From positions 1 through 39,466 of the IMG/VR virus record IMGVR_UViG_3300030107_001360: a stretch of DNA of 39,466 nt. One strand, 5' to 3'. This stretch comes from a virus. Of the stretch, positions 13,361 to 29,571 are shown piece after piece (positions within the stretch are counted from its first letter, which is position 1; every line of letters starts with the position of its first letter). The notes under the pieces were generated by a model. That model saw only the letters and a list, made by a program, of their open reading frames with translations. It was not told where the DNA came from and made no database searches. The position numbers and the translations under genes are program-made.

Positions 13361-14739
13361 TGGCTAGTGCACATATAGAAAGAACACCATCAAGTAACGG
13401 AAACCAAAAAACTTGGACTTGGAGTGGTTGGATAAAAATAAATGGACAAACAGATGCTACCTACCAATATTTAATGGAAGCATACTACGGAAATGGTTAT
13501 AGATATTCGTATATCTGTTTTAGACAAGGAACAATAGAAACTTATGGTGGAGATTATCAAACAAGTACCTCTCAAATGTCATTTGATGTTACAACAGATA
13601 GATTGTTAAGGGATCCATCAGCTTGGTATCATGTGTGTGTAGCTATGGATACTACACAAGCAACAGAAACAAATAGATTAAAAATTTGGATTAATGGAGA
13701 ACAACAAACAGAATTTCAAGGTTATGTTGGCTCAGGTGCTTCGGCAACTTTTCCAGCACAAGACGATGTTACTTTTATGAATGTAACAACAACTCCAATG
13801 AGAGTAGGTAAATCTTTTGATGGTTCTATGGCTCATGTTCACTTTATAGATGGAACAGCTTATACAGCTTCAACTTTTGGTGAAACTGATACTGCGTCAG
13901 GTATTTGGAAACCAAAAACTTCACCATCAGTAACTTATGGAACTAATGGTTTCTTTTTAAAATTTGAAAACTCAGGTAATATGGATTTAGATAGCAGTGG
14001 TAACAATCATACATTTGCTACAACAGGAGATGTAACTCAAAGTCTTGATACTCCTTCAAATAACTTTTGTAATTTAAATCCAGCTTTACCTATTCCTAGT
14101 GGTTTTGCTATTACAAATGGTAAATTAAGTTTTGCTGCTGGTGGAAGTCAATGGCAAGGAAATATATGTTCAATAGCACCTACAAAAGGAAAGTGGTATT
14201 ATGAATGTAAGTACACAACAGGTGTTGGTATTAAATTAGATATTACTAGACAAAAATCAAGTATGTCGCATATGGCAACTAATAATCAATCTTATGGTGC
14301 ATATAATGACCATGGTTATGGTTATCAATTAAATAATTCAGGAACTGATTATTATTGTAATAATGATAGTTGTACAACTTGGAACTCAAGCAGAGGAAAC
14401 TCTACTAAAATTTATATGGTTGCTATTGATTTAGATAACGGTAAATATTGGATAGGTGCTGATGGCACTTGGTTTGATAAAACTGGAACAGCAAACCCTG
14501 CAACAGGTGCAGATCCATTACATTCTTTTAGTGCAAAATTAAATGGTGAACCATTCTTTATTACTTTATCTGCTGAAAATACTGGTTCAACTCATCATGC
14601 TAATTTTGGTCAAGGATATTTTGGTACTACTCAGGTGGCTTCAGCTAACGCAGATGCTAATGGTTTTGGTGCGTTTGAATATGCACCACCATCAGGATAT
14701 TATGCTTTGTGTAGTAAAAATTTAAAGGAGAATGGCTAA
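13360..14739 (+). CDS. LamG-like plus SPRY-like tail protein, cassette copy 2
   Basis: 459 residues, paralogous to the 467-residue protein at 10185-11588. Shared order: N-terminal jelly-roll (WTWSGWIKING; WYHVCVAMDTT; KIWINGEQ), a middle GIWKPKTSPSVTYG segment nearly identical to GIWKPNTSPSVSYG of copy 1, then a SPRY-like half (GKWYYECKY; MVAIDLDNGKYWIG) ending in YYALCSKNL against FYAICTKNI. The exposed parts differ much more than the joints, as expected for receptor-binding proteins under diversifying selection. TAATG overlap with both neighbours. Confidence 0.72.
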   Translation: MASAHIERTPSSNGNQKTWTWSGWIKINGQTDATYQYLMEAYYGNGYRYSYICFRQGTIETYGGDYQTSTSQMSFDVTTDRLLRDPSAWYHVCVAMDTTQATETNRLKIWINGEQQTEFQGYVGSGASATFPAQDDVTFMNVTTTPMRVGKSFDGSMAHVHFIDGTAYTASTFGETDTASGIWKPKTSPSVTYGTNGFFLKFENSGNMDLDSSGNNHTFATTGDVTQSLDTPSNNFCNLNPALPIPSGFAITNGKLSFAAGGSQWQGNICSIAPTKGKWYYECKYTTGVGIKLDITRQKSSMSHMATNNQSYGAYNDHGYGYQLNNSGTDYYCNNDSCTTWNSSRGNSTKIYMVAIDLDNGKYWIGADGTWFDKTGTANPATGADPLHSFSAKLNGEPFFITLSAENTGSTHHANFGQGYFGTTQVASANADANGFGAFEYAPPSGYYALCSKNLKENG

Positions 14740-27657: not shown

Positions 27658-27915
27658 TTTGTATATCTAACTCGCGGTTGGATTTTTATAAGCCAGTGCG
27701 AACACTGGATGTCTAACCGTTGCAACAGCTAGAACTGCCAACCAACTCCCTAGGTGGTCTTACCCACTTTAGGTTAACTCTTATATTTTTCAATATAAGA
27801 ATTGCTAGAGAGTACACTACTAAACAGGCTCTCATCCCTTCGGACATACACCTGAAGTTCGCTACCTTATCGCGTTAACCAGACGATTCTTCAGTCAACG
27901 AGATAGATATACAAA
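27658..27915 (-). ncRNA. Multibranched structured RNA closed by a 17-nt helix
   Basis: TTTGTATATCTATCTCG and CGAGTTAGATATACAAA (- strand, 27899-27915 and 27658-27674) pair at 16 of 17 positions. Inside are at least four arms: CTTATATT-GAAA-AATATAAG (27780-27799), CCTA/TAGG with GTGG/CCAC (27749-27773), CGGTTGG/CTAACCG enclosing CCAGTG/CACTGG (27675-27719), and CTGAAG/CTTCAG (27852-27894). G+C is near half. It follows a strong terminator and precedes the AAAGGAG of the next gene. The GAAA tetraloop favours the - strand, but one G-U pair (27679/27715) favours +. A TAATAT at 27915-27920 overlaps the helix start, so the promoter is unclear. No family recognised. Confidence 0.65.
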
Positions 27916-27967
27916 TATTACCCATTCGGTATCATCATTCCTCAACGGGCTTTTTTTCTTTAGCGAT

Positions 27968-28003
27968 AAAAAAAACCCCATTAGCCCCGAAGGGCTAACG
28001 AGG
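27968..28003 (-). terminator. Strong intrinsic terminator
   Basis: On the - strand a 12-bp stem CCTCGTTAGCCC/GGGCTAATGGGG with a UUCG tetraloop closed by C-G, directly followed by eight U (A run 27968-27975 on +). Two G-U pairs form only on the - strand. It lies 13 bases after the stop of the 171-residue gene and separates the first two early genes from the structured RNA downstream. Confidence 0.9.
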
Positions 28004-28015
28004 TGGCTTATTAAT

Positions 28016-28531
28016 TTAAATTAATGTACCTTGTTTTAATGCATTTCTATAAAATGCTTGTGCTTTAGAATCTTTAGCAACATCACTCTTAACTTTCTTA
28101 AGTGATGATTGCGACCAATCTTTGCCAATTATATTCTTATATTGCTCTTTAGCAGTATCGAATAAGAATTGTGCTCTTTCAAGATTGATTTCTTGTGCAC
28201 CTTTAGTGAATAATAACTTGTTTGTTTTGTTATTATCTAATTCAGTTTTACAATCTTCTCTTGTAAAATCTTGAATTTTTTGATTAGTTTTGTCTAAACT
28301 TTCTTGACATCTATCAAGATGATATTTAAACGAACTAACAAATCTGGATGCATCAGCACTTCCGTGCCAACTCCAGTTTTTATCTTCGTAAAATGTAGCT
28401 ACAAAACTAGTGAAAAACATCTCAATAGTTTTAACTACATCTTCTTTACTAGATTCAAATGTATCTCTCATAGAATCTAGTCTTTCGTTAGAAAAATCAA
28501 ATTCTCTAACTTCTGATGCTAATGTTGACAT
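28016..28531 (-). CDS. First-operon early protein, helical, unknown
   Basis: 171 residues, charged and helical throughout (TLASEVREFDFSNERLDSMR; NQKIQDFTREDCKTELDNNK; RAQFLFDTAKEQYKNIIGKD), no membrane segment. It is one of only two genes between the divergent control region and the strong terminator at 27968, so it is likely among the first expressed, where host-takeover proteins are usually found. It overlaps its upstream partner by 13 bases. Not recognised. Confidence 0.65.
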   Translation of the reverse strand: MSTLASEVREFDFSNERLDSMRDTFESSKEDVVKTIEMFFTSFVATFYEDKNWSWHGSADASRFVSSFKYHLDRCQESLDKTNQKIQDFTREDCKTELDNNKTNKLLFTKGAQEINLERAQFLFDTAKEQYKNIIGKDWSQSSLKKVKSDVAKDSKAQAFYRNALKQGTLI

Positions 28532-28713
28532 TTAGCCTCCTTTTTTGTTGTGATTAATAATGGACTATTGTATTTACCAAGAATACTATCTATCTCAGTA
28601 TTTACCTCAGTTTCATTATCTTCGTTTCGAGTACTATCTAACTCTTGTACTCGTATCTTATCAGAACCTGATATATTTAATTCATACCAGTCTAACATTT
28701 CAGATATTTTCAT
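28519..28713 (-). CDS. First early gene, small acidic protein
   Basis: 64 residues from the ATG at 28713, which follows TTGGAGGTAGAT (GGAGG five bases away); an upstream TTG overlaps this RBS and is rejected. MKISEMLDWYELNISGSDKI, then an Asn/Glu/Thr-rich middle. It is the first gene of the leftward transcript, next to the control region. Early host-acting inhibitor or regulator is possible; unrecognised. Confidence 0.62.
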   Translation of the reverse strand: MKISEMLDWYELNISGSDKIRVQELDSTRNEDNETEVNTEIDSILGKYNSPLLITTKKEAKCQH

Positions 28714-28771
28714 ATCTACCTCCAAGTTATTAATTAACCCGTCTTAACTCACGGGATTAAGTAGGAGCACG

Positions 28772-29094
28772 ATCACGAGGTAAACTACACTTCACTGCGG
28801 AAAGTTGTTGCACCCGTAGTGGTGCGACCACTTTTCCTCGCTGGAGCGATAGCGGAAGGCAGTGAAGTAGTAGGCAAACTCGTGATAAAAGCGACTAACT
28901 CCCGTGTGTGTGGGGGCCCCATAGCAATAGTGAGAAACGCAGGATAATGCGATTGAGCATTAGCCGAGTATCGCAATGGTTGGAAATCGTACAGCTGTTT
29001 ATTCTGTGGCGAGATGCCAATCGCCACTGAATAACTACAGCTAGTAGATTTTAAATTGCGTATGGCGGGAAACCAAGTGATGACGGATGTCATC
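28772..29094 (+). ncRNA. Large two-domain structured RNA in the control region
   Basis: Domain 1 (28772-28886): ATCACGAG/CTCGTGAT, then CTAC plus ACTTCACTGC pairing with GCAGTGAAGT plus GTAG (one bulged A), then a three-way junction with a ~15-bp hairpin (28799-28837) and CGCT/AGCG (28839-28854). Domain 2 (28969-29062): CGCAAT/ATTGCG enclosing AAATC/GATTT, then a 19-bp arm AGCTGT, TTATTC, GTGGCGA with their complements around GATGCCAA. Hairpins GGATAATGC/GCATTAGCC (28942-28965) and GATGAC/GTCATC (29079-29094) link and follow. A G-U in the 15-bp hairpin forms only on the + strand. G+C exceeds 50% in 28801-28920. TGGTT (28977) and AACCA (29071) could make a pseudoknot. Not tmRNA, RNase P or tRNA. 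Confidence 0.7.
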
Positions 29095-29151
29095 TCCATA
29101 TCTTGTGTTGTGAGTATCAATAAACACTAAAGTATCATAATAATGCTTGAC

Positions 29152-29197
29152 AAGGAGGAATTAATTGTCCACTAACGATATGAGCAGAATAGAATAA
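29152..29197 (+). promoter_or_regulatory. Strong RBS with a 10-codon leader frame before terS
   Basis: AAGGAGG at 29152-29158 is the best Shine-Dalgarno near terS, but lies 41 bases before its ATG. It is correctly spaced for a TTG at 29165, whose frame (LSTNDMSRIE, stop 29195-29197) ends two bases before the terS ATG. The terS ATG itself has no RBS, so translation may depend on coupling with the leader. Confidence 0.4.
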
Positions 29198-29199
29198 TA

Positions 29200-29571
29200 A
29201 TGTCCGAATTAACAGACAAGCAGAAAGCATTAGTTGATACCATCGTAGCAACAGGGTGTAGTATTAAGGAAGCAGCCGAAAAGGCAGGATATTCAAGTAA
29301 AGGGTCATCTGAAGCAGGGAGAGTAAGTGCTTCTCGCACACTACGATTACCAAAGGTACAGAGTTATATGCAATCAAGGATAGCACAAACTCTAGGACTT
29401 GGTGCAGTAAGTGCGAGTAAAAGATTAATCGAGTTATCTAACGGAGCACGATCTGAATATGTTCAGCTCGAAGCTAGTAGAGATATACTCGATAGAGTAG
29501 GATTAAGAGCTCCCGATAAGGTAGCTCATAATATACAAGGCGATATTAAGATCAATATCGACTTGACTTAA
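29200..29571 (+). CDS. Terminase small subunit
   Basis: 123 residues. N-terminal helix-turn-helix (TDKQKALVDTIVATGCSIKE, AAEKAGYSSKGSSEAGRVSA), then the central RVSASRTLRLPKVQSYMQSR helix and an oligomerisation segment (SASKRLIELSNGARSEYVQL) followed by RDILDRVGLRAPDK; this is the usual layout of TerS proteins that bind the packaging site and load the large subunit. It is the first gene of the late operon. The large subunit follows about 1 kb later after small genes. Confidence 0.88.
   Translation: MSELTDKQKALVDTIVATGCSIKEAAEKAGYSSKGSSEAGRVSASRTLRLPKVQSYMQSRIAQTLGLGAVSASKRLIELSNGARSEYVQLEASRDILDRVGLRAPDKVAHNIQGDIKINIDLT

Follow-up and report, generated by a model that had tools for sequence, protein, structure and literature searches.

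The gap between the divergent early and late gene arrays of a marine phage genome very probably (probability about 0.95, judged from sequence comparison) encodes a real RNA family on the plus strand, whose member in the window extends over positions 28748-29096. The RNA was also found in more than 90 marine viral contigs; the family is new and lies outside Rfam, and its carriers are a group of marine podovirus-like phages. "The window" denotes the whole stretch of DNA that was analysed, 39,466 nt of IMG/VR record IMGVR_UViG_3300030107_001360. A sequence-only reading of the window had proposed a structured RNA in the early/late gap and understated the case, which now includes compensatory changes, a G-U bias and fixed synteny.

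Genome setting

The source record comprises 39.5 kb with a G+C content of 32.7%. Its late array lies on the plus strand, with all genes co-directional, and includes terS (29200), terL (30584) and genes for a head-tail adaptor, capsid, internal virion proteins and an amidase. The early array lies on the minus strand and encodes an SSB, a RecE-like/YqaJ exonuclease, a second protein that falls in an exonuclease-labelled phage family, HTH regulators and a ParB-like protein. The RNA occupies the divergent gap with one array on either side. Its constant 3' neighbour, terS (29200-29571, plus strand), was assigned to PF03592 Terminase_2 (E 2.3e-10), and the first divergent early gene (28519-28725, minus strand, likely ATG at 28713) had no family match in Pfam or PHROGs. 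Judged by TerL, the nearest isolate is Pelagibacter phage Hodr, at 66.5%. Recombination genes are present in the phage, and the proteins tested included none recognisable as a polymerase, helicase or primase. The GC skew switches at the gap, where gene direction also switches. The DnaA-box-like sequence TTWTNCACA occurs 0 times on both strands of the window, against about 7 occurrences expected from shuffles.

Fold of the gap RNA

The plus strand of 28735-29110 folded at -155.2 kcal/mol (z = -9.0; 0 of 100 shuffles as low) and the minus strand at -130.2 kcal/mol (z = -7.0), and the two RNA parts folded apart gave z = -5.1 and -6.4. The same plus-strand letters folded as DNA gave z -8.9, which leaves some room for a role as single-stranded DNA. 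The whole window was scanned on both strands as 216 segments of 360 nt, with only 12 shuffles per segment; the plus-strand segment at 28740 was lowest in energy among the 12 that ranked highest and came second by z, the z of a minus-strand coding segment at 14340 being slightly lower at half the energy. G+C reaches 0.533 at 28775-28924 compared with 0.327 window-wide, as had been pointed out for the first part of the RNA.

Domain 1 is closed by P1, which pairs CTCACGGGA (28748-28756) with TCCCGTGTG (28900-28908); all RNA elements given here are on the plus strand. Inside it lie P3 (ATCACGAG, 28772-28779, with CTCGTGAT, 28879-28886), a conserved internal loop of GTAAA (28780-28784) opposite GCAAA (28874-28878), P4 (28785-28798 with 28859-28873, one A bulged) and a three-way junction, whose arms in the predicted fold are P5 (28799-28836, with a hairpin of 28807-28814 and 28821-28828) and P6 (28837-28858). 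The joining segment GUGUGUGnGGGGnCCCAUAG follows, then domain 2, and then the hairpin P8. The core motif GTGTGTGTGGGGGCCCCATAG (28904-28924) is kept in relatives and was recovered by pattern matches. Relatives show domain 2 to be closed by P7, in which CATAGCAAT (28920-28928) pairs with ATTGCGTATG (29055-29064, G 29060 bulged); this helix is missing from the minimum-energy fold of the window by only 3.4 kcal/mol. Within P7 the fold contains a 19-bp interrupted arm (28990-29046), an insert that is variable in relatives. P8 (GTGATGAC GGAT GTCATCTC, 29077-29096) was located by a stem search 3' of P7. A short 5' hairpin, P0 (CCCGT/ACGGG, 28738-28755), is suggestive only: over 21 loci it averages 3.1 perfect pairs, compared with 1.0 when the upstream sequence is shuffled, and it is individually weak. 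Because its 3' strand is shared with P1, P0 and P1 are mutually exclusive, and P0 may therefore compete with P1.

Several parts of the architecture had been described from the sequence alone. The bulged 14-bp stem (P4), the three-way junction and the interrupted arm of about 19 bp are all present in the minimum-energy fold, but the 14-bp stem is enclosed by P1 and so is not the outermost helix. The description as a two-domain fold holds in that the RNA is structured and multi-domain; its boundaries do not, since P1 and the core helix P7 had been overlooked and the P8 hairpin is now added. A possible pseudoknot gained no support, and the fold does without it. The minus-strand ORF 28785-29120 was rejected as a gene, since it matched nothing in Pfam or PHROGs and relatives lack a consistently long frame there; no conserved ORF was found in the gap of the window or its relatives, and the view of the region as not protein-coding stands.

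Covariation and the folded strand

Helices were anchored by conserved flanks because the replacement of whole arms defeats alignment of the complete RNA with MAFFT/RNAalifold. A composite alignment of P1, P3, P4, P7 and P8 with 26 distinct rows was built, leaving out loops and arms and deleting small P3 bulges; the positions of P4 and P7 were set by conserved flanks, and the best match was taken as the partner strand in P1 and P8, so that the latter two helices are somewhat flattered. Pairing was retained in 94.6% of composite cells; slid controls reached 29-40%. Both sides had changed in 17 pairs. The compensatory changes that the earlier reading had asked of relatives were thus found, in five helices. 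P1 had two double-change pairs and several changes of C-G to U-G (26 rows, partner picked by best match), and one P3 pair changes from C-G to U-A in 12 of 26 rows. The sequence G(C/T)AAA opposite GCAAA occurs in nearly all type A relatives, P4 has other letters with complementarity kept, and P5 (UUGCACC...GGUGCGAC) was seen again in relatives. The inner pairs of P7 co-vary among CAAT/ATTG, CAGT/ACTG, AGAT/ATCT and CGAT/ATCG, with GGAT/ATCC in locus L043 (by eye), and a G-C pair becomes G-U in 6 of 26 rows. The length of the P7 insert differs widely; short inserts carry a conserved GAG(C/T)AACAGCGA between two pairs, and in all 54 loci these pairs are matched, in one of four states. In P8, six of the eight pairs have double changes.

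The folded strand was assigned from mismatches. In helices predicted without G-U on both strands, single mismatches were GT 14 versus AC 3 and TT 17 versus AA 5, and the anchored helices contained 13 GU versus 2 AC. Since G-U and U-U outnumber A-C and A-A in the varying helices, the plus strand, directed toward terS, is very probably the folded one; in 60 of 61 loci its fold was also more stable than that of the minus strand. The plus strand had previously been preferred on a single G-U pair, and the wobble bias and comparative data now carry that choice much further.

Relatives and synteny with terS

TerS relatives comprised 80 loci, in 33 of which the core was matched (window not counted). 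When 2.9 million viral contigs were searched by pattern for the core and for either of two 5' domain types, 99 contigs were recovered. Of these, 97 carry terS, and in every one the RNA precedes that gene by at most 900 nt and shares its strand; the other two stop short of the expected terS position. The upstream early gene varies among relatives and terS is the constant neighbour, a synteny that might have been inherited within a single phage lineage. Across relatives the core GUGUGUGnGGGGnCCCAUAG...GUAUGG persists while arms are swapped or resized; the G-run after P1 is conserved as well. Domain 1 arms are exchanged wholesale and domain 1 itself comes in a second kind; the RNA is therefore modular. 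Three pattern matches in bacterial genomes all lacked the 3' core strand and were taken as chance. No DNA similarity was found in phage records for the window RNA or for one relative.

In locus L083, TerS is just 63% identical to that of the window and the RNA core is nearly as in L085, suggesting that terS or the RNA was exchanged by recombination. Six loci (L003, L013, L030, L033, L043 and L056) have strongly folding gaps upstream of terS from which the exact core is missing; L043 and L003 keep the core helix with altered letters, and the others have different structures. The Hodr genome (OQ414635, L098:4037-4374) has the same divergent gap of 337 nt, with z about -6 on both strands; the core is missing, and the outer stem takes in the ribosome-binding site of the early gene.

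Transcription signals

A conserved promoter-like site (29147-29175, plus strand) lies between the RNA and terS and consists of TTGACA (29147-29152), a spacer of 17 nt and CACTAA. The TTGACA is present in nearly all of the 80 terS relatives; the -10 that follows it is weak in the group of the window and stronger in others and in Hodr. Since terS has this site of its own 3' of the RNA, the RNA would be dispensable as a terS leader. No consistent plus-strand promoter was found 5' of the RNA in relatives and no plus-strand terminator 3' of it. We infer a plus-strand transcript of the RNA from sequence, and for want of a terminator this transcript would, unless processed, continue into terS. On the minus strand, TTGTCA-16-TTTAGT is conserved to the right of the RNA, and a leftward promoter possibly overlaps the TTGACA region. 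A further element, TTGTGAGT...CACTAAAG (29102-29132, assigned to neither strand), is conserved in nearly all relatives carrying the RNA and, by minus-strand promoter score, is possibly an operator or a leftward -10 (ACTAAA, 29126-29131). A possible frame of 10 codons at 29165-29199 has a TTG start after AGGAGG and a TAA just before the terS ATG; the aligned relatives do not conserve the TTG.

Possible function

The explanation that we favour, tentatively and at clearly less than even odds, is a stand-alone non-coding RNA, or a processed leader, with a late-acting mechanism. A plus-strand transcript would begin in the 5' part of the first divergent early gene, or close to it, and extend to the late promoter, and the RNA would be released from it as a separate molecule or processed leader and fold into three domains around the invariant core. 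The core would be recognised by a phage protein, a host protein or a second copy of the RNA, leaving the outer arms to drift and be swapped. The fixed place before terS suggests that the RNA may have a role in DNA packaging or in the change to late expression. Its synthesis could also damp early expression, as the early ribosome-binding site lies on the opposite strand directly next to the 5' end of the RNA. The compensatory changes in five helices and one two-pair helix, the plus-strand wobble bias, the synteny in 97 of 97 contigs, the varying early gene, the promoter-like site of terS 3' of the RNA and the lack of a conserved ORF are consistent with this explanation; the missing plus-strand signals, a consistent promoter before the RNA and a terminator after it, count against it. 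That the RNA represents a new class of phage RNA machine, modular and co-inherited with terS, with a universal core, exchangeable arms and a direct part in packaging or the early-to-late switch, is a more doubtful proposal.

Two other accounts, both in real contention, also turn on the neighbourhood of terS. The RNA could be a cis-acting leader of the late operon comparable to HK022 put, binding RNA polymerase and causing read-through of terminators in a late unit that runs from 29200 to the end of the window and, if the genome is circular or permuted, on to about 18061. The shared strand with terS in all 97 contigs, the lack of a terminator separating the two and the co-directional late array agree with such a leader, but the conserved TTGACA lies between the RNA and terS, so that many late transcripts would not contain the RNA; no plus-strand promoter was found upstream, and put RNAs are far smaller than the gap RNA. 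We regard this account as unlikely. A part in terminase assembly or DNA recognition, by analogy with the pRNA of the phi29 motor, would explain the invariant pairing with terS, and sites recognised by terminases often adjoin that gene. Against this stand the lack of a match to the Rfam pRNA model and the fact that no RNA requirement is known for phages with TerS/TerL motors; we consider such a packaging RNA quite improbable.

Less probable still, though also in contention, is an RNA primer or R-loop at a replication origin, by analogy with ColE1 RNA II, where transcription through the gap would start replication. The idea arises because recombination genes are present and replisome genes were not recognised, and the conserved G-run after P1 would fit it. 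However, the proteins tested leave out some small ORFs and the window may be incomplete, DnaA-like boxes are lacking in the window, and the switch in GC skew at the gap proves nothing since gene direction changes at the same place. A structured 5' leader of the leftward early mRNA, made from the minus strand, is the least likely explanation. The conserved TTGTCA-16-TTTAGT, the short distance from the RNA to the early ribosome-binding site, which leaves little space for an early promoter, and the good fold of the minus strand (z -7) could be taken to indicate it, but the wobble counts, in single mismatches and anchored helices alike, and the greater plus-strand stability in all but one of the loci compared argue for the opposite strand.

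Comparison with known RNAs

Large structured phage RNAs are few and mostly unexplained. At the gathering score no Rfam family matched the window or 18 relatives, and at E up to 0.5 none matched in five relatives; at E up to 5 the window region gave only chance matches of microRNA/snoRNA type. The RNA did not match the Rfam covariance models of GOLLD and ROOL, and Bacteriophage_pRNA had no match in the window or the 18 relatives. The window contains no tRNA or tmRNA. No publication on the RNA was found in a literature search with thin coverage of subscription journals.

GOLLD and ROOL are large ornate RNAs of phages and bacteria (PMC12286853). The gap RNA resembles them in being large, multi-domain, highly structured, phage-encoded and unexplained in role, but is smaller and without an Rfam match, and it is fixed before terS whereas ROOL often lies near tRNA islands (PMC12286853). 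An RNA-only multimeric cage is a further mark of GOLLD and ROOL membership. It shares with phi29 pRNA the character of a structured phage RNA with a possible link to the packaging machinery, and differs in its three domains, its core, its lack of an Rfam match and its TerS/TerL phage. The put sites of HK022 are short and lie in early leaders directly after the promoter; like them the gap RNA is a structured control-region RNA that could act on transcription, but it is at least 350 nt long and has a promoter 3' of it. ColE1 RNA II is likewise several hundred nucleotides long and structured, with a G-run in the joining segment, in an element without its own replisome; there is no homology, and an origin at the gap is hypothetical. 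The gap RNA is common in marine viral contigs and, in this set, tied without exception to one gene, which is a direct lead to function of a kind that GOLLD and ROOL lack. Hodr, the nearest isolated relative, has an equally structured gap in the same place, which makes the question testable in a culturable host.

A second structured stretch

A second structured stretch was observed at 27726-27990 on the minus strand (z -5.75; plus strand -2.8). It consists of a terminator-like hairpin and T run after the early gene 28016-28531, followed by more structure, and half of it is also found in L107, L113 and L115.
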